The position numbers and the translations under genes were made by a program. The notes beneath the pieces are model-generated. The model was given only the letters and a program-made list of their open reading frames with translations, was not told the origin of the DNA and did no database searches. Positions 51,203 to 64,000 of a stretch of 64,000 bases of DNA are shown piece after piece; positions within the stretch are counted from its first letter, which is position 1; the number at the start of each line of letters is the position of its first letter. Origin of the DNA: Alcaligenaceae bacterium (GTDB lineage: Bacteria; Pseudomonadota; Gammaproteobacteria; Burkholderiales; Burkholderiaceae_B); the NCBI GenBank assembly GCA_013416435.1, contig JACCEN010000005.1, forward strand, positions 124,001-188,000, read 5' to 3'.

Positions 51203-52390
51203 TCAGGCGGAATAATGCAGCCAACCGTCTTCCAGGCCTTCCGTCATGAGGGCAAGCTCCACCTGGGTAAGCTCCGCTCCAAGGGCTGGGGAGCAGTCCA
51301 GCCTGCGCTCATCGGCAAGCCGACGCAGCAGAGGGCCGGCCGTGACCGGCGCCACCTCGCCATTGATGAACAGGCTGTCGTTCCAATACATCATTTTGGT
51401 GCAACGATCCAGCACAAGCTCGCCCGACGGCGGGAAGTCCTGCGCGAGGTCGAGATCGTCGCTGGACGGATCGAAGTCCGCGTTCTCGGGAAGGTCGGTC
51501 AGCCATTGCCCCAGAAAACGCGCGGCCAGGGCCTCGTCGAACTGCAACTTGCGAATGGCGGCCAGGGCCGCATCGACCAGGCCGCCCGGCAAGGCGGCCG
51601 GCGTTTCGGTTGCGGCGACGCCCGGGTCCTTGTAGGTGTCGGACAGGACCGGACCAGGTATGACGGGGGTCGCATAAAAGCCGCCGATGTCGCCCAAGTT
51701 GGCCATAATCTGATCGTTGGCGGCTTCCAGCATGCCGCAGGCGAGGGTGGCTTCCGTGGGTGCGCGAAAGCCGATGGAAATCGTCATGCAATCGCCTTCG
51801 GCAATGCCGTCGTGGGCCACATGCGGAGGCAGGTACAGCATGTCGCCCGGCTCCAGGACGTACTCGTCTTCGGGCTGGAAGTTCTGAAGAATCTTGAGCG
51901 GCATCCCCGGAATCAATGTCAGGTCTTTTTGCTGGCTGATGCGCCAGCGCCGCTTTCCATGCGCTTGCAGCAGGAAGACGTCGTAGCTGTCGAAGTGAGG
52001 GCCGACGCCGCCGCCATCACTTGCGATGCTGATCATGGCGTCATCCAGACGCGCGTCCGATATGAAGCGGAACTGACGCAGCAGCGCCGCCGTGGCATCA
52101 TCGTGCAAATCGACGCTCTGGGCCAGCGCCGTCCAATTGGCCTGTTTTTGAGGCGGAAGCTTCGAAAGAGGCCCTGTCTTCATGTTCCAGCCTTTTGCAT
52201 CGCGCCAGATCAGGCGCGATTCGACTTCCTCGCGCTTGACGAGCTGTCGTATGTCCGTAATGGACAGGGACGGCTTGAACCCTGGTATGGCCTGGCGTAT
52301 CAACAGAGGCTTGCGCTGCCAATGCCGGCGCATGAATTCCCTGGGACTCAAACCACCCAGCAGGGGCAGGGCTTGATCGATGTTCATCAT
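51203..52390 (-). CDS. roxA: 50S ribosomal protein L16 arginine hydroxylase-type JmjC oxygenase
   Basis: 395-aa 2-oxoglutarate/Fe(II) oxygenase of the YcfD/RoxA group (the E. coli enzyme hydroxylates an arginine of L16). The N-terminal block [20 protein letters not shown] is typical. Iron ligands: His132 and Asp134 in [20 protein letters not shown] (quoted: [10 protein letters not shown]) and His193 in PPHVAHDG. A helical C-terminal dimerisation region follows. Start overlaps the mutS stop by ATGA, so it is translated in series with mutS. Confidence 0.88.
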
Positions 52391-55023
52391 AGATATTCGT
52401 TTCGTAAGCGGTAAAGAGTGTCCAGCGCCTCACGCGGAGTGAGCTGATCGGGATCTATGGATTCCAGCGCTTCCAGAACCGCGGAGGAGGCGGACGGATT
52501 GGAAGCGGCGGGCAGCAGCGCATCGTCTGCGCCTTCGTCCGGGTCGGCGTTGGAAAAGAGATCGAGTTGCGGCGTGGGCGCGCCCTGGGCTTCAAGCCGG
52601 GCGAGTTCCCGGCTGGCATGGCGGATGACGGCCGCGGGAACCCCCGCCCGCTGTGCCACCTGGATGCCGTAGCTGCGGCTCGCCGGGCCCGGCTGGACCT
52701 GATGAAGGAAGACGATGCCGGAAGAGGATTCGGCGGCGGCCAGATGCACGTTGGCGGCGGTGGGCGCCTCTGTTGGCAGCCGCGTGATCTCGAAGTAGTG
52801 CGTGGCGAACAGCGTAAGCGCCTGATTGTGCGTAAGCAGCCGATGCGCGATCGCCCACGCCAGCGCAAGGCCGTCGTACGTAGAGGTGCCGCGTCCTATT
52901 TCGTCCATAAGCACCAGGCTTTGCGGCGTGGCAGCCGCCAGGATGGCCGAGGCCTCGGTCATCTCCATCATGAAGGTGGAGCGCCCGCCCGCCAGATCGT
53001 CAGCCGCGCCGATGCGCGTGAAGATGCGATCGATCTGGCCGATGCGCGCCGACCGGGCGGGAACGAAGCTGCCGATCCGGGCGAGCAGCGCAATCAGCGC
53101 CACCTGGCGCATGTAGGTGGACTTGCCGCCCATGTTCGGACCGGTGATGAGCAGCATCCGCCGCTGCGGGCTGAGTTCGCAGTCGTTCGGCGTGAACTGC
53201 TCGATGCTGCGCTCGACCACGGGATGCCGGCCTGCTTCGATGAACAGTTCGCTGCCTTTGACCAGCGCGGGCGCATTCCAGTCGTTGTTCCGCGCGTGAT
53301 CGGCAAGCGCGGCCAATACGTCGATTTCGGCCAATGCCCCGGCGCTGCGCGACAAGGCTTGCGCATGCGCCGACATCTCTTCCAGCAGCGCATCGAACAG
53401 CCATTTCTCGCGGCTCAGGCTGCGGTCCTTGGCCGACAGCACTTTGTCTTCCCAGGCCTTCAGCTCGGGCGTGATGTAGCGTTCCGCATTCTTCAGGGTC
53501 TGGCGGCGGCGATAGTCCGCAGGCACCTTGTCAGCCTGGCCGCGGGTGACTTCGATGAAGAAACCGTGCACGCGATTGAACTCGACGCGCAGGTTCGGAA
53601 TTCCGGTGCGCTCCCGTTCGCGCGCCTCGAGCTGGATCAGGAACTCGCCGCTGTCGCTGGCCAGTCGCCGGAGTTCGTCGAGCTCTTCGTCGTAGCCGGC
53701 GGCGATCACGCCGCCTTCGCGGACGAGTTGCGCGGGTTCGGGGTCGATGGCGCGGTGAAGCAGGGCGGTGATGTCCTGATCGATGCGGATGTCCTGTGCG
53801 AAAACGGCGAGCCGGGCTTGAGGCGCGAACGACTGCTCGATATGCCGCGCAATGTCTGGCAGCAACGCCAGCGCCTCGCGCAGGCTGGCCAGTTCCCGGG
53901 GGCGGACCGAACGCAGCGAAATGCGGGTTGCGATGCGCTCAAGGTCGGGATAGCGTTCGAGCAGCCTGCGCAGCTCGTCGAGCGGGTCGCGGGCGCTCAG
54001 GCCATGCTCGTTCGGTGGGGCCGAGAGCAGGGCGGCGATGACTTGCTGCCGCGAAAGCGCCGGCGCATCGTCGCGTAGCGGATGATGCAGCCAGCGACGC
54101 AAAAGCCGGCTGCCCATGGGGGTGGCGCAGTGATCCAGGATGGAGAACAGCGTGGGACTGTCCTCGCCGCTGATGGTTTCCGTAAGCTCGAGATTCTTGC
54201 GGGTAACCGGGTCCAGCACCAGGTACTCGCCGGATTGATCGACTTGTATGGTCTGGATGTGGGAAAGCGATTGCGTCTGCGTGCGGCTGACATAGCGCAA
54301 CAGCGCCCCCGCCGCGCATACCGCGGCCGGCAGGCCGTCCATGCCGAAGCTGGCCAGCGAATCCACCGCGAAATGCCGATGGAGGACATCGCGCGCGCCG
54401 TCGGTTTCGAAATGCCAGTCGGGCAGGGCGCTGATTGCCATGCCGGGCAAGGCGTCGAGCCGGGCGCTTTCAGCGCAGAGCAGTTCGGCCGGATTGATAC
54501 GGTGCAGTTCCGTGTGCAGCATGCCGGGCGCGCACTCGCAAACCCTGAAGTCGCCGTTGGCCAGGTTCATCCAGGCGATGGCGCTGCGTTCGCTACGCTG
54601 TATGCGCTGCGACCAGACCGCGGCAATCATGCGGTCGGCCTTGGCGGGCAGCAAGGCTTCGTCGGTAAGGGTACCCGGGGTGACGATGCGGACGATCTTG
54701 CGCTCTACCGGCCCTTTGCTCGCGGCCGGATCCCCTACTTGCTCGCAAATGGCCACGGATTCGCCCAAGGCCACCAGGCGTGCAAGATAGCCTTCCATGG
54801 CATGAAAAGGCACGCCCGCCATGGGAATCGGCGCCCCGTTCGAGGCCCCGCGTTTGGTCAAGGTGAGATTCAGCAGACGGGCTCCGCGCTCTGCGTCTTC
54901 ATAGAACATTTCATAGAAGTCGCCCATGCGATAGAACAGCAGATGCGATCCGGCCTCCGCCTTCAGGCGGAGATATTGCTGCATCATGGGAGTGTGTTTA
55001 GAATCAATAACTTGCGATGACAT
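52387..55023 (-). CDS. mutS: DNA mismatch repair protein MutS
   Basis: 878-aa mismatch-recognition ATPase. The N-terminal mismatch reader [11 protein letters not shown] holds the Phe-x-Glu (about residues 34-38), [11 protein letters not shown] follows, and the C-terminal ATPase has [13 protein letters not shown] (Walker A), [31 protein letters not shown] (quoted: [16 protein letters not shown], Walker B) and ATHYFEIT. All domains are complete. Its ATG is only 20 bases past the prophage integrase stop and no good ribosome site lies before it, so its native leader has been replaced or moved; see the finding. roxA follows with an ATGA overlap. Confidence 0.95.
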
Positions 55024-55043
55024 TATTCTAGACAGTCTAAAAC
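55024..55043. other. junction between mutS and prophage, candidate attachment core
   Basis: The 20 bases between the integrase stop and the mutS ATG hold TAGACTGTCTA, a perfect 11-bp palindrome around T. Attachment sites normally lie next to the integrase gene, so the crossover probably falls here or in the first codons of mutS. The matching site at the other prophage end is outside the window. Confidence 0.45.
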
Positions 55044-56033
55044 TCAGGCGGTTTTCTTCGGTTGCCGGGTGAACTCAGGGCCATCCACAATCGGCACCTC
55101 ACGCAGCCGAATATATCGGTCTGTCATAGCCGCCGAAACGTGCCCAGCAAGCTGTTGTGGGTCCTTTCCTTGGCGCTTGGCGTCCGTCAATGACTTGGCC
55201 CGTATGTCGTGTATGTGTGCATCCTCGACGCCAGATGCCAAACACGCCTCGTTCCACTGGTCCTTGGTCACGCCATAGGAGGGCGGTTTGCCACCCCTGG
55301 CCCGCGTCCGAAAAAGGTTCAAGCCTAACACGTTGCCACTCAAGGCATTGGCAGCAGCCACAGCTTCACGCAGCTGTGGCGTCCAGCGCACCAGCAGCTT
55401 GGCCTTGGTTTTCTGCTGCTCGAATAGAATGCCCTGGTCCGTGACGTCAGACCGCTTGATCCGCAGAACATCGACAACGCGCTGGCCCGTCAGAAACAGA
55501 AGATCCATAACAATCTGCAGGCGTGGGTGAGCGTGAGCTCGGATAGCGTCAAATTCCTTATCTGTCAGGTAACGCTTGCGCTTGGCCTCCTCGTGGCGGC
55601 GGATGCCAACGCAGGGATTGCTATCGACCAGTTGCCACTCCACAGCGTATGTAAATACAACGCGCAAGAACGACAGCACCCGGTTCGCCATGTTTGGCGT
55701 GTCGGCCATGTCCATCTTGAGCGCCGCCACATGCTTGGGCATGACCTGATGCGGGGCAAACTCAAAAAAAGTATCTTTGACGCGCCTGGCCGCGATTCGA
55801 TATTGTTCAATGGTGCTCTTAGCCAGCTTGGGCTCTATGTGCCTCAGCACCTTGTCAACCAAGGCCGACATGCCGCCTTTGGGTGCCTCAACGAGCCTTG
55901 CGTACTCGGCAAGCGCGGCGTTCAGGTCTGTGCCGATGCGCGTCCAGGTTCCGCCTTTGACGTAGTAGTAGGCGCCATGCTTGTGGTGTACGCAGCGTGG
56001 CAGGTGTTTATCGTGCTTGCGCGGACGGGCCAT
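55044..56033 (-). CDS. int: tyrosine recombinase (phage integrase)
   Basis: 329-aa site-specific recombinase. An N-terminal arm-binding part ([23 protein letters not shown]), a core-binding SAM-like part (about residues 55-145), and the catalytic domain with Arg185 (LTGQR), Lys208, His275-x-x-Arg278 (HDIRAK), His298 (LAGHVS) and nucleophile Tyr307 (TDRYIR). All six active residues are present, so it should be functional. Transcribed towards mutS on the same strand, with stop 20 bases from the mutS ATG. Start overlaps DUF4224. Confidence 0.95.
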
Positions 56034-56226
56034 TTCGTAGCCTCATTTGTGGTTCTCGGGGGATGCGTTCGGCGCCAAGCTTCTCGACTGCGGCGCGGAA
56101 CACTAATATAGATCCATCGGGCCTGATTTTATGACGGATTCCGAGCGCGGCCAGCATCCGAGCTTGTGCGCTTCGTCGCTGACGATTTGTAATCTGCTCA
56201 ATTTCCTCATTCGTCAGAGTAAGCAT
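56008..56226 (-). CDS. DUF4224 phage protein
   Basis: 72-aa protein MLTLTNEEIEQITNRQRRSA.... of the DUF4224 type, which in phages usually lies directly before the integrase. LTLTNEEIEQIT with RxSAQARMLAALGI and RPDGSILVFRAAVEKL are the family blocks. The ATG at 56226 follows GGAGG and overlaps int by 26 bases. A role in integration control (excisionase-like) is inferred from position only. Confidence 0.8.
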   Translation of the reverse strand: MLTLTNEEIEQITNRQRRSAQARMLAALGIRHKIRPDGSILVFRAAVEKLGAERIPREPQMRLRNGPSAQAR

Positions 56227-56237
56227 ATCAGCCTCCA

Positions 56238-56263
56238 ACAAAAACCCCGACTCAAGGCCGGGG
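56238..56263 (-). terminator. terminator separating the early genes from DUF4224-int
   Basis: On the minus strand CCCCG (63-59) pairs with CGGGG (49-45) followed by TTTTTGTT. It lies between the zinc-finger gene and the DUF4224 start, so early-operon readthrough into int and mutS is probably limited. Confidence 0.55.
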
Positions 56264-56313
56264 CAGACTCCAACTTCTGGCCGTCGTGGCCAGCACCTCA
56301 TCGATGCGGTCAG

Positions 56314-56529
56314 TCACCCGTGCGCACCTCTTTGGCGGTCCAACCACCTGGCCTTGCTCGCCAGGATCTTGGGATCGCTCGCACAACAAGCCTTGCACCA
56401 GGACCGCCAGCCGCCAGGCCGCGCGAAGAAAAACTCGTCGTCAGCCGGCCAGAACTCCTTGCATTTGGCGCACTGGATCTCTTCGCCAATCTCTGTCGTG
56501 CGCCGGGGGCGGGGAGGGTGGCGGCTCAT
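56314..56529 (-). CDS. small phage zinc-binding protein
   Basis: 71-aa protein starting MSRHPPRPRRTTEIGEEIQC with two Cys pairs, CAKC and CKAC, about 25 residues apart, a likely zinc ribbon; basic tail SKARWLDRQRG. The start at 56529 makes an ATGA overlap with the upstream gene stop. Unknown function, possibly nucleic-acid binding. Confidence 0.6.
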   Translation of the reverse strand: MSRHPPRPRRTTEIGEEIQCAKCKEFWPADDEFFFARPGGWRSWCKACCASDPKILASKARWLDRQRGAHG

Positions 56530-57029
56530 AGGGGTTCCTTTGCCGGCTGCCCGTCTGCTGGTGGGGTGGGCTGGCCGTAGCGGGCGAGTAGGGCGCGAAC
56601 TGCCGCACGTAACATCCATTTGTCGAACGACATGAGGCCATGCTCGCCGTTGTGGTCTGCATATTCCGAAAGCAGGTCGACAATATCGTCCTCCGCATCA
56701 CTCAGCACCTTCACCGGCTCGGCAACTGTTGGAGGATTTCGAATAGTTGGCTCGGCGGGTTGTGGGGCGGCGTATAGACAGTGCACGGGCCAACCTTTTG
56801 CCCTCCATCTATCAGCCACCACAGGATCATACGTAGTGGCTGATTTGTCGGTTAGGTGATCTTCGGTATACCACGCCACCGGCTCACCCCTGTGCTTGCG
56901 GTCGGCTTCGATGGCGCGCTTAGCAACATCCTCGCACCAATTGCATAGAGTGAGGATGTCCGCCCGCTGTGGGTTGCAGTGAAGGTATGGCACTTCAATG
57001 CGCGGCAGTTCGGTTGTTTTGTCTTTCAT
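56526..57029 (-). CDS. phage hypothetical protein (EPVAWY-type)
   Basis: 167-aa protein with a GEPVAWYTEDH block and GWPVHCLYAAPQP, phrases common in uncharacterised phage early proteins. Acidic, no membrane segment. Overlaps a tiny gene upstream (ATGA at 57026-57029) and the zinc-finger gene downstream. Function unknown. Confidence 0.65.
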   Translation of the reverse strand: MKDKTTELPRIEVPYLHCNPQRADILTLCNWCEDVAKRAIEADRKHRGEPVAWYTEDHLTDKSATTYDPVVADRWRAKGWPVHCLYAAPQPAEPTIRNPPTVAEPVKVLSDAEDDIVDLLSEYADHNGEHGLMSFDKWMLRAAVRALLARYGQPTPPADGQPAKEPL

Positions 57030-57085
57030 GTCCTTTCCTTATCTATGTCCCTGATCTGCTCGTCCGTCAGTATCGTGGTGGTCAT
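57026..57085 (-). CDS. 19-residue coupling ORF
   Basis: ATG at 57085 to TGA at 57026: MTTTILTDEQIRDIDKERT. Its start overlaps the stop of the upstream gene (ATGA) and its stop overlaps the next start (ATGA), so it closes a gap that would otherwise break the chain of coupled genes. The LTDEQI phrase recurs at the N-terminus of many phage proteins. May act mainly as a translational bridge. Confidence 0.4.
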   Translation of the reverse strand: MTTTILTDEQIRDIDKERT

Positions 57086-57408
57086 GGCATATTCCTCCCT
57101 ATCTCGGCAGCAGCTTGAACGATGGCTCGGCGGGTGGCGGGGCGTCGTTGTTCTTCTCCGTCAAACTCCACCCACGCCAAGTCTCTGTGGTTTTCATCGC
57201 TGACGAATACGCACGGGCCATCGCCTGCGTCCGGAGGCATGTGCTCGATGTTGAATCGCATCTGGACAGCCAGCCGCAACGCGTCGCCGTCGTCGTCGAG
57301 AGGATTCCAGTTGCCGGGTATTCCGCCCACGGCTATGTCGCTGATTTCTGGACGGTAATCGTATCCCGCAGCCTTCGCGGCCAGTTCCAGCAGTTCTCTG
57401 TCTGTCAC
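57082..57408 (-). CDS. phage hypothetical protein (DUF2591-like)
   Basis: 108-aa protein: MTDRELLELAAKAAGYDYRP opening, NWNPLDDDGDALRLAVQM, and RRAIVQAAAEIGRNMP end. The wording matches the DUF2591-type phage proteins. No enzymatic motif is visible. ATGA overlaps link it to both neighbours. Confidence 0.7.
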   Translation of the reverse strand: MTDRELLELAAKAAGYDYRPEISDIAVGGIPGNWNPLDDDGDALRLAVQMRFNIEHMPPDAGDGPCVFVSDENHRDLAWVEFDGEEQRRPATRRAIVQAAAEIGRNMP

Positions 57409-57587
57409 TTCACTTCCCCCTCAATGCGGCGCACTGAGCAATCAAAGTCCTTGTCGTTGACATAGAACCCTCCTTGCCTAGCGCATTCAGTAGCTACCTC
57501 TTGGTGTGCAGCCGTCCAGCCAGAGATGAACGCCACGATGAAGGCAAACAAAATCGTAAATAACCAGCCGAAAACACTGTCCGTCAT
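57405..57587 (-). CDS. small phage membrane protein
   Basis: 60-aa protein with one hydrophobic helix (LFTILFAFIVAFISGWTAA, about residues 9-27) followed by a charged soluble part. ATGA overlaps with genes on both sides. No family recognised; could be an Rz-like or superinfection-type membrane protein, not provable here. Confidence 0.6.
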   Translation of the reverse strand: MTDSVFGWLFTILFAFIVAFISGWTAAHQEVATECARQGGFYVNDKDFDCSVRRIEGEVK

Positions 57588-57949
57588 GGCTTTTCTCCCT
57601 CAACGCGGCGGGCGCGGTCGATAATCCGAGCGCACTCACTAACGAATCTTGGTAAGGAGCCTCCATCGTCAGGGTCGAATCGGTCGAAGGCCTCTTGAAA
57701 CCATGCTTGTTCAAGCAGCCAGCGATACCTTTCAGCATCCTCCCGATCCTGCGATTGCAGGGCGGCTCGGCGGTTCCACGCTTCGGCCAGCAACGGCCGG
57801 CAGTCGTCCATTGCGCTCGTGCGGTGGTTCGTCGCGACGCGGCAGCTGCCGCATTCAATCCAGTTCCATCCATCATCATCGCTATCAAAGTGCGCTTCGC
57901 CCCCGCAGAACGGGCAGTGCAGTAAGGCGCGTTTCTGTTCGGTGTTCAT
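57584..57949 (-). CDS. lar: Lar family restriction alleviation protein
   Basis: 121-aa protein with an N-terminal Lar zinc-ribbon: LLHCPFCGGEAHF, later ECGSCRVA, and the closing AWNRRAALQ. Lar proteins reduce type I restriction and raise host methylation of incoming DNA. The rest (residues 65-121) is an added helical tail (EDAERYRWLLEQAW). With an orphan methyltransferase in the same prophage it suggests a DNA-protection module. Confidence 0.75.
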   Translation of the reverse strand: MNTEQKRALLHCPFCGGEAHFDSDDDGWNWIECGSCRVATNHRTSAMDDCRPLLAEAWNRRAALQSQDREDAERYRWLLEQAWFQEAFDRFDPDDGGSLPRFVSECARIIDRARRVEGEKP

Positions 57950-58260
57950 GCAGGCTCCTTCGGGTTGCGTCCGTGATATTTGCCCTGCGCCTCATTGCAA
58001 TTGGTCGGCTTGATGCCGTGCTTGTCGGTGCAAGGAGAACAGCGAAACGTCGGGTCATGCAGGTCTGGAGTGCCGTCCATGCAATAGCCATAGGACTGCG
58101 ACCACGACACACCAGGATCGCTCTCGCGAATGAATCGACCGCATCTGTCGCAACGCGTCTGATACGCAGCGTGCCATCCTCGACCCGGCCCCCTATCGTT
58201 GGTCGCCATGTCATTCATCCACCGTTCGTATGAGAGCGCGTCAGTCTCAAGGCGCATCAT
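57946..58260 (-). CDS. phage hypothetical protein with zinc-finger cysteines
   Basis: 104-aa protein; start at the ATGATG at 58260-58255 behind GGAGG (MRLETDALSYERWMNDMATN...). RCDRCGRFI and FRCSPCTDKHG give two Cys pairs, and DPGVSWSQSYGYCMDG a middle block. Upstream in-frame codons up to 58452 lie over a gene in another frame, so are not used. Function unknown. Confidence 0.6.
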   Translation of the reverse strand: MMRLETDALSYERWMNDMATNDRGPGRGWHAAYQTRCDRCGRFIRESDPGVSWSQSYGYCMDGTPDLHDPTFRCSPCTDKHGIKPTNCNEAQGKYHGRNPKEPA

Positions 58261-58396
58261 CTCCTCCCTGTCCCTGTGCTGCATCTGCGATCTGCCGAGC
58301 CAGCGATTCGCACTCGGCAACGCAGTAGTCAACGTCACGGAATACCCCTTCCGCGCGCTCCCACATGATCGGACTGTCTGGGTATTCTTGCTGCAT
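58247..58396 (-). CDS. 49-aa phage ORF in a gap of longer frames
   Basis: A clean frame beginning MQQEYPDSPIMWERAEGVFR at 58396 and ending GDDAP before a TGA at 58247. It follows directly after the stop of the upstream gene (58427) and overlaps the start of the next by 14 bases, as others in this chain do. An upstream TTG is an alternative start. No family recognised. Confidence 0.5.
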   Translation of the reverse strand: MQQEYPDSPIMWERAEGVFRDVDYCVAECESLARQIADAAQGQGGDDAP

Positions 58397-58426
58397 CTTC
58401 TCCAAGTATTCAGGCGAGGGCGCGTC

Positions 58427-58705
58427 TCAACAGTGGCCGCAATCAAAACCAAACCACCACAGCTTGCTTTCCTCGATCATTGATCCACCACGCTCGCCAG
58501 AAAACGTAAGCCCGCCGTGAGCGTCGAATACGCTGCTCGGCGCATCGCCAAGCGCATTGCTATGCCTGTCGTAATCAGCGCCATGCAATGGATGACCCGG
58601 CGCAACGCCCACGTACCCGCAGTGAAAACCTATATCAGTCATGATGACGATGGCGCGGAACCCGGCTTCTGTCACCCAGTCGCGCCTTAGCTCAAACTGT
58701 CTCAT
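58427..58705 (-). CDS. conserved phage hypothetical protein (WWFGFDC type)
   Basis: 92-aa protein with GHCGYVGV-like FHCGYVGVAPGHPLHGADYD, VFDAHGGLTFSGE and LWWFGFDCGHC. These phrases recur in uncharacterised phage proteins. His/Cys-rich, possibly metal-binding. Overlaps the upstream gene by 14 bases. Confidence 0.7.
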   Translation of the reverse strand: MRQFELRRDWVTEAGFRAIVIMTDIGFHCGYVGVAPGHPLHGADYDRHSNALGDAPSSVFDAHGGLTFSGERGGSMIEESKLWWFGFDCGHC

Positions 58706-58940
58706 GTCGTTCCCCCTGTGCGAGTGCGGCGCGGGCTACATCCATTGCGTAAGATCTGCCAAAACCATTCATCTCGACCATTTCCACCATCGTTTCTAGG
58801 GCCTCCCGCAAAGCATCCCTCTCAGCCAGCAGGGCGCGGATAACGGTAGGCCCGCTCGCCAGCCTGTACGCAAGCATGGCGTCACCGTCGCCGGGCTTCA
58901 CGGCTTCCAGCGCCGCCCTCAGTTCTGCGTAGTCAGTCAT
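58692..58940 (-). CDS. phage hypothetical protein
   Basis: 82-aa protein MTDYAELRAALEAVKPGDGD... with an LLAERDALREALETM coiled-coil-like helix. ATG at 58940 overlaps the upstream stop by 8 bases. No family name. Confidence 0.55.
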   Translation of the reverse strand: MTDYAELRAALEAVKPGDGDAMLAYRLASGPTVIRALLAERDALREALETMVEMVEMNGFGRSYAMDVARAALAQGERHETV

Positions 58941-59151
58941 CACTATCTCCCAGTGCATCAGCCAGCCCCTTCCTGAGGGCCGGAAAATCCACGCCATCGG
59001 CCACGCGATCCACGCGGCGGCATGCGACGATTGCCGTTGCGACTGCATAGCGCAGGCCGACGATCTCATCCGCCGCCGCGCGCATAGCTTCACTTGTCGG
59101 GTTGTCCCTGAGGTAAGCAACCAGTGCGGGGCCGGTCAGTCGCTGCGTCAT
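58933..59151 (-). CDS. phage hypothetical protein
   Basis: 72-aa helical protein (MTQRLTGPALVAYLRDNPTS, ADEIVGLRYAVATAIVACRR). Overlaps both neighbours (ATGA upstream at 59148). No family recognised. Confidence 0.55.
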   Translation of the reverse strand: MTQRLTGPALVAYLRDNPTSEAMRAAADEIVGLRYAVATAIVACRRVDRVADGVDFPALRKGLADALGDSDD

Positions 59152-59495
59152 ACCGTGCCCCCGAATACGCGCCAGAACTCGACCCGCGCCTTGTCGTGCG
59201 CTTGGCCGGCTTGCGGTGTGCCATGGATCATCATTTGGTGATACGCACGCTCACAAGCTTGCAAAGCGGCAAGGGCGCCGTCGTCGGCGATGCGCTTGCC
59301 GCTGACCCCGCCTGCGCCGATGGTTTCGAGTTCTTCATCTGCTTTTTTAAGCTTGAGCACTAGCAGTTCGTTGTGGGCAATGGCAGCGGCGTAATCTTCG
59401 TGGCGCACATAAGCGCCATCGGGTTGCTCGGTAATGCTGGGTGCGCCGATGCTGGCTGCGTATTGCCGACCGAGCCCGTATCGTTTAATAGGCAT
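59148..59495 (-). CDS. phage hypothetical protein
   Basis: 115-aa protein MPIKRYGLGRQYAASIGAPS with a VRHEDYAAAIAHNELLVLKLKKADEELE helix (quoted in parts) and an AHDKARVEFWRVFGG end. Start at 59495 follows AAGGAA. First gene of the long overlapping chain; function unknown. Confidence 0.6.
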   Translation of the reverse strand: MPIKRYGLGRQYAASIGAPSITEQPDGAYVRHEDYAAAIAHNELLVLKLKKADEELETIGAGGVSGKRIADDGALAALQACERAYHQMMIHGTPQAGQAHDKARVEFWRVFGGTV

Positions 59496-59561
59496 GACAG
59501 TTCCTTGACCACGGACCCAGAGGCCCGCGGATTTATTACAGTTCGATGAAGTAACCACGGG

Positions 59562-59623
59562 TTATCCACAGGTCTTTCCCCATGGATTGTGGATATTTCA
59601 GTTGGCCAGACCGCCCATCCACA
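59562..59623. promoter_or_regulatory. DnaA-box cluster, candidate prophage origin or control site
   Basis: A perfect DnaA box TTATCCACA at 59562-59570, a second with one mismatch in reverse (TGTGGATAT, 59588-59596) and a third weaker one (CCATCCACA, 59615-59623) lie within 62 bases in the only sizeable gap between the chain and the methyltransferase unit. Confidence 0.45.
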
Positions 59624-59681
59624 GAAATAGGATGGCCACGGCGCAAAGGGTGGCGACGGCGACGCCGTAGATGTAGGTCAT
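59598..59681 (-). CDS. 27-residue membrane ORF
   Basis: ATG at 59681 to TGA at 59598: MTYIYGVAVATLCAVAILFL then WMGGLAN. Almost wholly one transmembrane helix. Its start overlaps the stop of the previous tiny ORF by ATGA. Likely a real small membrane protein because of the overlap chain; function unknown. Confidence 0.45.
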   Translation of the reverse strand: MTYIYGVAVATLCAVAILFLWMGGLAN

Positions 59682-59749
59682 GGGAGCCTCCAGGCCAGGG
59701 CGACCATTACGGAGCCGACAGCAATGGAGAGGTAGGAGAGGGTGGTCAT
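59678..59749 (-). CDS. 23-residue membrane ORF
   Basis: ATG at 59749 to TGA at 59678: MTTLSYLSIAVGSVMVALAW then RLP. One hydrophobic helix. Starts inside the methyltransferase stop (ATGA at 59746-59749) and ends in the start of the next tiny ORF. Confidence 0.45.
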   Translation of the reverse strand: MTTLSYLSIAVGSVMVALAWRLP

Positions 59750-61095
59750 GAAATCTCCAAGATGTCGCTCACTCGCTGGAGCCTTTCTCCTATCCAGCGC
59801 ACGTTGTTGACGCACCAGCTATTGCCCAGTGCCTTATAGCGGGGTCCATCCACATCCTTGACGCGCCACTTACCCGTTTTGCGGTTCTGGCGTACCTGCA
59901 TGCCTTGGGCGGCGCAGGATTCCGGCGTTTCGGTTGGATCCATGGCGCGCCATCCATTCCACGTCGGGATGCGCGTGTATCCGCGCGGAAAGGCCTGCAG
60001 GGCCTCGCATTCCTCAGGGGTGAGGCGGCGAACTTGCATGCCCAGAAGTGCGCCATTGTGGCGGCGCGGGCCGTTGTTGCTGTCGAGGGTGGCGTGGACC
60101 TCATCAAGGCGCACTCCACTCTGGCTGGATTGGAATGCCACTGCTTGATGCCCACCGCCATTCGAATGGCTGTTGCTGTGCGCCATAGCCCGCTGCGTAC
60201 CGGCGACCTCAATGCCGATCCCGAATCCGTTTTGTCCGCTGCTTTTGCAGTCGAAAGCGATGGCGGGCGCATGAGCTCCGGCAGCCAGCGGATGGCACGG
60301 GCCTCCGGGCTTCGGGTTGCTTCTGTTCTCTCTGCTGGTGATCTGAGTGGTGTCGAATGCGACTGGCACTATAGGAGTGCCGCGTCCAGTTCCATCCTCG
60401 CTGGCGTCAAATCCCTCTCCACGCAGTCCGTGGGCGACGACTGGATCTTGGCCCCGCGTTTCGCCGGTTCGCTCAACGCCGCGGCCCGAACTGACAAGGC
60501 TTGGCGCAACATCGGCGGCAAAGCCTTGCCCCGCTTCTCTGCTCGGCGCAGGATCCCCCGACAGGCTGTGGCGCTCAAAAAGAACCGCTGCGGCACGTCG
60601 CCAGTCTCCAAGATATCCGACAACGAACACACGACGGCGTCGCTGGGCCACTCCAAAGTACTGAGCGTCCAGAACTCGGTAGGCGAACCCATACCCGAGT
60701 TGGCCCAGCATCCCGAGGAAGGTTCCAAAATCCCGTCCTCCGTTACTCGACAGGACGCCGGGGACGTTCTCCCATACCAGCCAGCGGGGGCGATATCTTG
60801 CAGCAATGGCGCCAAAGGTGAGCATGAGGTTGCCACGCGGGTCATCCAGTCCTTTTCGCAGCCCTGCGACGCTGAAGGATTGGCAGGGAGTTCCACCGCA
60901 GAGAAGATCGACATTTGCATCAGGCCACTCCTTGTATTTGGTCATGTCGCCCCAATTCGGGACGCCGGGATAGTGATGCGCCAGCACAGCGCAAGGGAAT
61001 GGCTCGATTTCGCTGAATGCCACGCCAGACCATCCTAGGGGATTCCAGGCGACGCTTGCGGCCTCGATCCCAGAACACACACTGAGAAAGCGCAC
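59746..61095 (-). CDS. orphan C5-cytosine DNA methyltransferase
   Basis: 449-aa enzyme. Motif I FLSVCSGIEAAS, motif IV GGTPCQSFSVAG with catalytic Cys71, motif VI WENVPGVL (Glu109-Asn-Val), motif VIII AQRRRRVFVVG, then a long target-recognition region (about residues 190-370) and motif IX/X GMQVRRLTPEECEALQAFP and KALGNSWCVNNVRWIGERL (quoted in parts). No restriction enzyme lies beside it, so it is an orphan. The only fitting start is GTG at 61095; a hairpin overlaps its ribosome site. Target sequence not readable. Confidence 0.92.
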   Translation of the reverse strand: MRFLSVCSGIEAASVAWNPLGWSGVAFSEIEPFPCAVLAHHYPGVPNWGDMTKYKEWPDANVDLLCGGTPCQSFSVAGLRKGLDDPRGNLMLTFGAIAARYRPRWLVWENVPGVLSSNGGRDFGTFLGMLGQLGYGFAYRVLDAQYFGVAQRRRRVFVVGYLGDWRRAAAVLFERHSLSGDPAPSREAGQGFAADVAPSLVSSGRGVERTGETRGQDPVVAHGLRGEGFDASEDGTGRGTPIVPVAFDTTQITSRENRSNPKPGGPCHPLAAGAHAPAIAFDCKSSGQNGFGIGIEVAGTQRAMAHSNSHSNGGGHQAVAFQSSQSGVRLDEVHATLDSNNGPRRHNGALLGMQVRRLTPEECEALQAFPRGYTRIPTWNGWRAMDPTETPESCAAQGMQVRQNRKTGKWRVKDVDGPRYKALGNSWCVNNVRWIGERLQRVSDILEIS

Positions 61096-61103
61096 AAATT
61101 CAT

Positions 61104-61126
61104 CCCGCCGGTTATTGGCCGGCGGG
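61104..61126. promoter_or_regulatory. hairpin over the methyltransferase translation start
   Basis: CCCGCCGG (61104-61111) and CCGGCGGG (61119-61126) form a perfect 8-bp stem with a 7-base loop. On the minus strand the 3' arm contains the only G-rich ribosome-site-like sequence, 8 bases before the GTG start, so folding would hide it. Confidence 0.45.
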
Positions 61127-61221
61127 CTCCATGGTGGTGGGGAAGGGGTTTCCTCTATGGAAGAGGGGGAGGGGTGGGGCTAGAATCGGCTGGGCGCCGG
61201 GGTGGCGCGGGAGAGACGTTT

Positions 61222-61524
61222 ATGCACGATTTGGATATTAAGTACACGCACAGACTTTCAAGTGATGAAAGCTCGGGTTGCCCTTATTGCGATACCTTTA
61301 TCTCTGGCCATAAACTTGATAAGGCGATCAATCACTTGATCAGCGCCCATGAGGGTCGGTTGCTGCATATCGGTAGCGAATACAACGGGACTGATGATCG
61401 CGGCCATACCGTACACTTTACGGTTGCCATGCTGGCATTTTCGACTGTCCCGCCCGAAAAGTCTCCCTACCAAGGGCCGAGGATTCGCTTCACCGTGGCC
61501 GAAGATGGCAGAGAGATCACTTAA
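61222..61524 (+). CDS. phage zinc-finger hypothetical protein on the opposite strand
   Basis: 100-aa protein, the only plus-strand gene in this prophage part. GCPYCDTFISGH followed by NHLISAHEG makes a C2H2-type zinc finger (residues ~19-43); then a beta-rich tail (RGHTVHFTVAMLAF, IRFTVAEDGREIT). Start at 61222 after GGGAGAGA. Divergent from the methyltransferase; possible regulator. Confidence 0.6.
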   Translation: MHDLDIKYTHRLSSDESSGCPYCDTFISGHKLDKAINHLISAHEGRLLHIGSEYNGTDDRGHTVHFTVAMLAFSTVPPEKSPYQGPRIRFTVAEDGREIT

Positions 61525-61654
61525 CCGCCAACCTGAACCCCTGCGCCAGCTTCGCCCCAGGCGCAACAAACCCGTCTTGCTGTATCCCGGAGACCGAAGC
61601 CTGTAGCGCCGCCTGCAAATACGCATCGGTGTTGGATAGGCCCTTATTGAAACG
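61517..61654 (-). other. short open frame without a good start, possible gene remnant
   Basis: Directly after the exonuclease stop the minus strand reads NKGLSNTDAYLQAALQASVS then GIQQDGFVAPGAKLAQGF...AVK to a TGA at 61517. The composition is protein-like, but no ATG lies in frame; only TTG at 61618 could start it. It overlaps the end of the plus-strand zinc-finger gene. Perhaps a small gene with an unusual start or a truncated one. Confidence 0.3.
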
Positions 61655-62405
61655 TCATGCGTCGATACACATCGCGCGTTATCAGCACGTCGTGCTTGCA
61701 GTACTCAAGCAGGTCATCGATGCGGCCCTGAGCCCAGTAGTCGTAAACCATCGAGCCGTCTATACCGTCCTTGCCTTCGAGGCCAAGCGCTCGGCACAGA
61801 TCGTCCAGGCGGACGCGGTTGCCACGGCCTGCCCATTCGAGCATCGTGTCGTAGACGCGCGGGTCCCAGGCGTTCGGGTTGACAGGGAAGTCCGGATTGG
61901 GCTGCACGCCCAGAATCATGGACCGCTGCAACAAGAACCGAAGATCGAAGCCGATATGATTATGGCCGACGAACTTCGGTGGATTTTTTCCCGATGGCCG
62001 CGCGTGGCTATCGATGTACTCACTGAGCCAAGCCAATATCTGGCGCTCATCAGGCGGTCCACCAGCGGCCGCATAAAGCGCAACCGGATCGCTATCTTCA
62101 AAGGCAATTCCGACAATAAACAGCGTTCCGCGCGAAGCATCAAATGATGTTTTTCGCCACGCCTCATCGCCTTGGCTTTCTGCATTTTCAGCCCCAAAGC
62201 GCTCGCACCACAGGGAGGCGAGCTTATCCTTGGCTGTGAACTTGATTTCATTGGCGTCGGTCATGCCAAGGTCGGCCGCGAACTGGTCTTTGTTGTAGTT
62301 ACTTGGTGGCTTTACATCAGTCTTGGCTGTCTCAATAAACGATTCACGCGCGCCCGGACGAAGATCGGGCAGGGTTTCGATATCAATGAAGAATGTGTTT
62401 CTCAT
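61644..62405 (-). CDS. PolB-type 3'-5' exonuclease
   Basis: 253-aa predicted exonuclease of the DnaQ-like fold, PolB exo2 group. Exo I FFIDIETL (Asp8, Glu10), Exo II VGHNHIGFDLRFL (Asp154), Exo III YCKHDVLITRDVY (Tyr235, Asp239). No polymerase domain, so a stand-alone nuclease likely used in phage replication or recombination. The ATG at 62405 is preferred to a TTG five codons earlier. Same strand as the helicase, after a terminator. Confidence 0.85.
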   Translation of the reverse strand: MRNTFFIDIETLPDLRPGARESFIETAKTDVKPPSNYNKDQFAADLGMTDANEIKFTAKDKLASLWCERFGAENAESQGDEAWRKTSFDASRGTLFIVGIAFEDSDPVALYAAAGGPPDERQILAWLSEYIDSHARPSGKNPPKFVGHNHIGFDLRFLLQRSMILGVQPNPDFPVNPNAWDPRVYDTMLEWAGRGNRVRLDDLCRALGLEGKDGIDGSMVYDYWAQGRIDDLLEYCKHDVLITRDVYRRMTFQ

Positions 62406-62420
62406 GTTCTGTGTTTCCAA

Positions 62421-62444
62421 GAAAAACCCGCTATTGAAAGCGGG
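62421..62444 (-). terminator. terminator between the Cys-rich gene and the exonuclease
   Basis: On the minus strand CCCGCT (62444-62439) pairs with AGCGGG (62432-62427), followed by TTTTTC. It lies just 16 bases ahead of the exonuclease start, so attenuation between the two genes is possible. Confidence 0.6.
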
Positions 62445-62642
62445 CTAGAAAGGGCAGCCATCAAACTTCCAATCCGGGCATCCGGACTGAATTACCTCTG
62501 GCGGAGGTCGTTGCTGGTATTTCTGGCAGGTGTTTTCTGAGAAGTGCTCGCAAGACAAACAAGCCACTTCGATGTCAGATAAGCGCCGGAGCATGTCCTG
62601 CAACGCTTCCTTTTGTATCTGAAGATCGGTCTGATTCATCAC
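62445..62642 (-). CDS. small Cys-rich phage protein
   Basis: 65-aa protein (MMNQTDLQIQKEALQDMLRR...) with six cysteines-type pattern CLSCEHF, NTCQKY, SGCPDWKFDGCPF, likely zinc-binding. It starts 68 bases inside the end of the helicase gene, behind AGGTG; a later Met (62594) would shorten the overlap. Function unknown. Confidence 0.55.
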   Translation of the reverse strand: MMNQTDLQIQKEALQDMLRRLSDIEVACLSCEHFSENTCQKYQQRPPPEVIQSGCPDWKFDGCPF

Positions 62643-63999
62643 CTAGGTCCAGTTGCGCGGGCCACTCAAACCCCACGATTTCGGGATATTTGCCCGATTC
62701 GTTGACCGTTACCGTGGTTGGCCGACGCAAGCCATAGCCCGCCTCAATCCACTCAAGCGCCTGATCAATGGTTTCGGGCACGTACGCCATGCCTTCCTTG
62801 CTACGGTAAGCCCACCACTGCCGTGCCCGGTGCTGGGCGTAGCCGGTGTGCTGCAAAGCTATCCATTCCCTGGCAACCACGCGCAAGCCAGACCAATATT
62901 TGACGAGCAGAGAATCTGGCTTACCCTCGTTTCGGCTCACGTGCAAGTCGTACTCCACGTCGTCAATCGGGTAGGTTTTAATGACCTTTTCAACTTGCGT
63001 GGATAGGATGGCTGCATCACTGGCTGATCTGGCTTTGGGATCCTCGACCTCGCGCATGAGGTGGTCGCACTCCGGACACCTTAGCAGCGCTGCCGGCATG
63101 ACCTGGGCACCGCAGTTGTCGCAGACTGCGAATGGGGCGCTTCCTGCTTTGCGCTTGGATGCCCGCTTGCCCCTGATGGCATCGATCGGGCCCATGCGCT
63201 CGGTGGTGTCGGAGAAATCCAGCCACAGGCAATCGGTCTTGCCAGGCGCAATGCGCATTCCCCTGCCAGCGCCCTGTACGTACAGCACCGGCGATCTGGT
63301 CGGACGCAACCAGATGATGCAATCGACGTCCGGGACATCGAAGCCGGTTGTGAGCGCAAGCACGGTGACCAGACAGCGTATCTGTCCCGCCCGGTATCTG
63401 CGGATAAGCGCCTCGCGCTCGCCCTTTGGGGTGTCCCCGGTCACAACCGCAGCGGATATGCTCAGATGGCCGAGCGCAAGCGCAAATTCATCGGCGGTTG
63501 CAACCGTTGGGCAAAATGCAATCCATTTCTTACGGTTGACCGCTATTTGCACGGCTTGGCTGGCAGCCAGCGCCAGGTGCTTACTGACCTGGCTGGCAAG
63601 CTCCGACAGCTGGTAGTCACCATTGACAATGGGCACCGCCTGCACGTCGATCTGCGCCAGCTCTTCGGCAGGCCTGACCAATGGAGAGTTGTACCCATTC
63701 TCAAGCATGAACTTGACTGTGACCTCGTGACAGATGCCGGTGAATAGCGGGTCCCTGCCGTCGGTGAGCCAGACGCCATTGCCACGGAAAGGCGTAGCGG
63801 TCAGGCCCACGGCGCGAAAGCTGCAATATTTGGCCAGGTCGTTGAGCAGTGAACGATACATGCCTGCGCCGTCGGAACTGATCAAATGGCATTCGTCAAA
63901 GATCACGCACTTGATGTTGCCGAGTACATGGGCCGATTTGGCAACGCTGCCTATGGTCGCCACAATGACATCGGCGTTGGGCTGCTTTTTCCCCACTGA
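62575..63999 (-). CDS. phage SF2 DEAD/H-type helicase (N-terminus beyond window)
   Basis: Partial gene, at least 474 codons; the frame is open to the window edge, so the Walker A domain is not seen. Motif II VIFDECHLI, motif III GLTATPFR, motif V TTGFDVPDVD and motif VI QGAGRGMRIAPGK identify a superfamily 2 helicase. A zinc ribbon (CDNCGAQ and CPECDH, about residues 290-315 of the visible part) and a C-terminal domain (WIALQHTG, ARQWWAYRS) follow. Together with the exonuclease it looks like a phage replication module. Confidence 0.88.
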   Translation of the reverse strand, partial: SVGKKQPNADVIVATIGSVAKSAHVLGNIKCVIFDECHLISSDGAGMYRSLLNDLAKYCSFRAVGLTATPFRGNGVWLTDGRDPLFTGICHEVTVKFMLENGYNSPLVRPAEELAQIDVQAVPIVNGDYQLSELASQVSKHLALAASQAVQIAVNRKKWIAFCPTVATADEFALALGHLSISAAVVTGDTPKGEREALIRRYRAGQIRCLVTVLALTTGFDVPDVDCIIWLRPTRSPVLYVQGAGRGMRIAPGKTDCLWLDFSDTTERMGPIDAIRGKRASKRKAGSAPFAVCDNCGAQVMPAALLRCPECDHLMREVEDPKARSASDAAILSTQVEKVIKTYPIDDVEYDLHVSRNEGKPDSLLVKYWSGLRVVAREWIALQHTGYAQHRARQWWAYRSKEGMAYVPETIDQALEWIEAGYGLRRPTTVTVNESGKYPEIVGFEWPAQLDLGDESDRSSDTKGSVAGHAPALI

Positions 64000-64000
64000 C

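Follow-up and report, generated by a model that had tools for sequence, protein, structure and literature searches.

A headless lambda-like prophage within the mutS reading frame of an Alcaligenaceae bacterium, with mutS read from a phage-supplied start codon

The window analysed here, a stretch of 64,000 nucleotides from a draft genome, contained a tyrosine integrase gene and the mismatch repair gene mutS in close succession on the reverse strand. The integrase gene (55044-56033; PF00589; phrog_1) ended with a TGA stop codon (55046-55044), 20 bp before the ATG (55023-55021) of mutS (52387-55023), which was itself followed on the same strand by a gene for a roxA-type JmjC ribosomal oxygenase (51203-52390), overlapping mutS by ATGA. 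Pfam and PHROG scans identified an excisionase-like ORF (DUF4224; phrog_1266) directly preceding the integrase gene; its likely start was an ATG near 56226 (56008-56226, reverse strand), and the list of ORFs gives a longer version at 56008-56301. The gap between integrase and mutS (55024-55043) contained an 11-bp palindrome, TAGACTGTCTA, at 55029-55039. An earlier note, made from the letters alone, had described the 20-bp spacing on one strand, the palindrome and the ATGA coupling, and all three were borne out by the coordinates; the mutS-roxA pair was also present at most of the loci read from relatives. The product of mutS was complete, with domains I-V identified by Pfam, and was 93% identical to the copy from the same genus over residues 8-878. 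The integrase catalytic residues R185, K208, H275, R278, H298 and Y307 were invariant in 15 homologs. No further copy of the int-mutS junction was found elsewhere in the genome.

A direct repeat search of the extended contig placed both ends of a prophage. The attL core, CACACTCCCATGATGCAGCAATAT (54973-54996, reverse strand), encodes the MutS residues HTPMMQQY and includes an exact 14-bp part at 54977-54990; its partner, the attR core, was found at G000:C35:227337-227360 (L004:19337-19360), outside the window. These 24-bp cores were identical at 22 positions, 14 of them consecutive, and the next best match to the core in the 144 kb examined was 16/24. Measured from core to core, the prophage was 48,364 bp long; its left part occupied 54977-64000 (reverse strand) and continued past the window to G000:C35:227341. 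The right prophage end and the duplicated core, which the earlier note had proposed to look for, were both located. The recombination point corresponded to mutS codons 10-17 (HTPMMQQY), inside the reading frame. On the mutS strand, attR began with ATGACGCAGCCTGACCTCTCCTCCCACACCCCCATGATGCAGCAGTAT and then passed into phage sequence and a stop codon; this is the native mutS start, severed from its gene. The corresponding stretch on the window side, ATGTCATCGCAAGTTATTGATTCTAAACACACTCCCATGATGCAGCAATAT, continued into the remainder of mutS. The severed start begins MTQPDLSS, and differs from the start now in place, MSSQVIDSK, which is made up of codons 1-9 of mutS, start codon included, as supplied by the phage (54997-55023, reverse strand), all later codons being those of the host. 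When the two flanks were joined in silico, they produced an in-frame, uninterrupted native mutS without a scar; attP joined likewise produced a short mimic of the mutS start, ending at a stop codon.

The orphan start at attR matched the native starts of relatives (MTQPDLSGHTPM, MTQSDLSKHTPM), in which short and varied mutS start peptides, such as MNKDDLSS, MTQSDLSK and MTQPDLSG, stand before HTPMM. MSSQVIDSK differed from the mutS starts of all relatives, and resembled the attP or attL of related phages (MSQVIDS[KQ]). The earlier note had named an identical 20-bp leader in prophage-free relatives as a finding that would refute it; the leaders of relatives differed, and the native leader was located at attR. 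On the evidence of both junction sequences and the core match, the prophage sits within the mutS reading frame and the start now used is that of the phage; insertion point, junctions, hybrid frame and displaced start can all be read directly. Two claims of the earlier note were modified as a result. The prophage does lie at the 5' end of mutS, but inside codons 10-17 and not merely in front of the gene; and mutS has indeed been separated from its native promoter side, but the gene was re-made with a phage start codon and nine codons.

The arrangement recurred elsewhere. Two related phages that were not integrated (L087 and L090) had the integrase gene, an inverted element of the TTAGACTGTCTAA type and, in attP, a start resembling MSQVIDSQHTPMMQQ. 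This start ran straight into phage sequence, whereas in the integrated L084 and L085 it ran into full mutS. The same attL was seen in L084, L085, L093, L101 and L103, and the mutS start mimic also occurred in the attP of Pseudomonas phage phiAH14a and P. aeruginosa phage F_TK1718sp/PAK (L096, L098). The MSQVIDS start was repeated among phages of divergent integrase sequence. Since the combination of integrase, palindrome and hybrid mutS was present in other phages and genomes, the adjacency of int and mutS in this genome is not due to chance. Within the family, the integrase lineage was found beside mutS in three of 268 genomes, this one included (the others being G065 and G107), and an integrase profile search of 399 order-level and 369 class-level genomes added one further strong match, the more distant G343, which was also beside mutS. 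A search of named genomes produced a distant match in Candidatus Glomeribacter only. In G065 an ORF was situated between int and mutS (L101, ~950-1500); its N-terminus was integrase-like and, by eye, it resembled an HNH endonuclease.

Not every relative of this integrase has mutS as its target. The integrase of Bordetella phage vB_BbrS_PHB09 is related (42.5% identity), and that phage integrates in a pilin gene at a 14-bp site, TGACCGAGTACATC (PMC7010805). Pilin-type and other integrase homologs in the family were likewise located away from mutS, and the choice of target has evidently changed within this integrase family. L122 bears a non-mutS label in the integrase tree, but its actual position is beside mutS. 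A second, unrelated integrase (465 aa-type, Arm-DNA-bind_2) ended some tens of bp short of the mutS ATG in G003, G017 and G032, and a fragment of it was retained in G001, of the same genus as the present genome, making four of the 30 loci read (L068:18172-19569, L069:445-1842, L034:179-1447 and L067:19282-19515). The element carrying it in G003 also had RepA, ParA and ParB genes; a 12-mer search for its attR in 40 kb found none. Given this second lineage at the same place, the 5' end of mutS is, to judge from integrase positions, a hotspot in this family at which no fewer than two lineages of integrase have inserted.

PHROG scans showed that the prophage had the gene content of a lambda-like, long-tailed phage, with a Cas4 exonuclease, SSB, Sak4, a CI-like repressor and a CII-like activator, and it also carried primase, tape measure, neck and tail genes and an endolysin. 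No PHROG match to terminase, portal or capsid was found in the prophage, nor any ORF of suitable size, and tblastn with the terminase, portal and capsid proteins of phiAH14a against the prophage was negative. A short Dda-like helicase ORF abutted the neck genes (G000:C35 ~206600-207100; L003:18600-19050), and this, combined with the missing head genes, makes a deletion of the head module likely. A prophage lacking that module should not form virions by itself. The prophage may still be able to excise, since the integrase catalytic residues are intact and xis is present. The loss of head genes suggests that the host may by now be bound to the mutS start brought by the phage. Among other genes, the prophage included a C5-cytosine DNA methyltransferase gene (59746-61095) and a match to a Lar-like restriction alleviation protein (57584-57949). 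A transposase-like remnant, IS1380-like by eye, was present between attR and thiC (G000:C35 ~227700-228370).

The palindrome lay within an inverted pair of GTCTARAA sites (55026-55042, with no strand assigned). This octamer occurred four times in 144 kb, twice in the palindrome and twice near attR, and the same inverted pair was found next to the core in L084, L085, L087, L090, L101 and L103. It is most likely, from this distribution, that the palindrome is a pair of putative integrase arm-type sites at the phage ends. A role as terminator or operator was rejected, as the junction RNA folded more weakly than shuffled sequences (z = +1.5) and the motif occurred, within the 144 kb, only at the prophage ends. 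Similarly, a leaderless promoter in the 20-bp gap (TAGAAT just before the ATG) was considered and discarded; it was not conserved in related phages (TATAAG, TAATAA) and had no -35 element. The earlier note was correct that mutS has no good ribosome site, but this is uninformative and was dismissed as a sign of damage, because a Shine-Dalgarno match in front of mutS was found in none of 26 relatives.

No consensus sigma-70 promoter was found on the int strand between 54800 and 58000 (3.2 kb). The best weak candidate, whose score was within the range of shuffled sequences, was positioned immediately upstream of int, ~1.08 kb from the mutS ATG. A terminator-like hairpin was placed just upstream of xis-int-mutS (56244-56264, reverse strand) by a consensus scan only, in which five such hairpins were found against 2.7 expected in shuffles. 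At attR, a TATAAT box was present 117 bp before the orphan mutS start, being a -10 match only; 12 relatives in which no integrase adjoins mutS had a TAYAAT box at a distance of 58-210 bp upstream of the core. A strict scan for both hexamers found no promoter in 1.2 kb around the orphan native start. As judged from gene spacing, there is hardly any space for a dedicated mutS promoter at the co-directional join of int and mutS. The earlier note had placed mutS under integrase transcription; its position directly behind int on the same strand was borne out, and for the source of transcription itself we infer that mutS is most likely carried on a (xis-)int-mutS-roxA transcript or else served by a cryptic promoter inside int. 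The negative promoter scan and the hairpin upstream of xis count against this reading.

Taken as a whole, these observations are very probably explained by a lambda-like prophage, now headless, that integrated in the MutS HTPMMQQY, replaced the host start with its own and left mutS behind int. The tyrosine integrase would have inserted the prophage by site-specific recombination within this N-terminal stretch, and an attP equipped with a copy of the mutS 5' end and its own start codon would have replaced the host start and first codons while keeping mutS open and complete. The native start and promoter side are left at attR, 48 kb away, and excision would restore native mutS without a scar. 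While the prophage is integrated, mutS and roxA, directly behind int and on the same strand, would be the last cistrons of (xis-)int-mutS-roxA, unless a cryptic promoter in int serves them.

The effect on the level of MutS can be envisaged in different ways. It is quite plausible, without being probable, that the replacement is neutral, with a promoter evolved by the phage, within or close to the 3' end of int, driving mutS at approximately the native level and the mutation rate unaffected. Phages integrating in coding genes usually preserve the target gene; here the phage-carried start keeps the frame, and MSQVIDS recurs across divergent integrases. There is also the precedent of SpyCIM5, where a promoter inside int rescues mutL (PMC3430984). 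However, two scans identified no promoter-like sequence on the appropriate strand near the 3' end of int.

The prophage might alternatively be a conditional mutator switch, in which int is repressed in the lysogen, mutS and roxA are poorly expressed, and induction or excision restores repair, as for SpyCIM1; this was considered rather unlikely. The 20 bp between int and mutS, the removal of the native promoter side by 48 kb, and the presence of a CI-like repressor, a CII-like activator, int and xis would all suit such a switch, and the SpyCI elements offer an analogy for it. Yet the MutS frame is intact and without sign of decay, elements at HTPMMQQ in other hosts keep mutS functional while integrated (PMC5296598), and the absence of a promoter is weak evidence when the strict scan found none around the orphan native start either. 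It is similarly doubtful that mutS-roxA owes its transcription solely to its place at the tail of xis-int, such that repair and the ribosomal oxygenase follow int expression and a lysogeny-dependent mutator state results. Ordinary adjacency, or a misassembled contig end that put an integrase beside mutS by chance, is conceivable in a draft of 55 contigs, but is highly improbable and already refuted by the attR match, which puts the displaced native start on this very contig where the prophage was expected to end, and by independent phages and genomes sharing the junction.

The mismatch repair system named as a precedent by the earlier note was SpyCIM1, a prophage-derived element at mutL of S. 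pyogenes, which cuts a mismatch repair gene and its downstream gene from the native promoter (PMC3430984). The present case is alike in affecting the 5' end of a mismatch repair gene and in separating that gene and the next from the native promoter. It is unlike SpyCIM1 in that the target is mutS and not mutL, in that insertion was inside the frame and supplied codons, and in that the element is a larger, lambda-like prophage. SpyCI at mutL is best regarded as analogous in function; the closest precedent is provided by the elements that Chu et al. (2017) described in mutS. Among phages, phiAH14a (KU708004; PMC4936722) has an integrase 49.5% identical to this one, a mutS 5' mimic in attP and a similar order of regulator, neck and tail genes; unlike the present prophage, it is inducible and complete, terminase, portal and capsid included. 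The text of the phiAH14a paper makes no mention of mutS (PMC4936722). Phages, an isolated inducible one such as phiAH14a among them, thus have the 5' end of mutS available in attP as a prefabricated copy.

Chu et al. (2017, mBio; PMC5296598) described elements inside the mutS HTPMMQQ from Beta- and Gammaproteobacteria numbering in the hundreds; V. splendidus 12B01, E. coli 536, P. putida F1 and B. multivorans CF2 are among the hosts. These elements, which include prophages, supply a new start, orphan the native start and support functional mutS while integrated; scarless excision was proven by PCR in three reported hosts (PMC5296598). On its testable structure, the present prophage belongs to this class: the insertion is inside HTPMMQQ (the attL core, 54973-54996, encoding HTPMMQQY), an orphaned native mutS start lies at the far end (G000:C35 near 227337-227390), the element brings a new translation start, MSSQVIDSK, and scarless excision is predicted. 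An independent promoter for mutS also counts among the marks of the class; here the int strand showed no consensus promoter. A scar of the 12B01 type is not expected, as there is no 2-bp offset between the cores here. The prophage thereby adds to the mutS-resident elements a clear Betaproteobacterial case, with both junctions, a displaced start and excision predicted to be scarless. It differs from the element of E. coli 536, in which an Arm-DNA-bind_3 integrase fragment, without meaningful similarity to the present integrase, points away from mutS across ~220 bp; here, the two genes are co-directional and 20 bp apart. Were repair wired to int in this integrase lineage, it would differ in this respect from the E. 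coli 536 element. This co-directional int-mutS layout is the notable feature of the locus, and leads to a testable prediction as to whether the state of the prophage controls mismatch repair.
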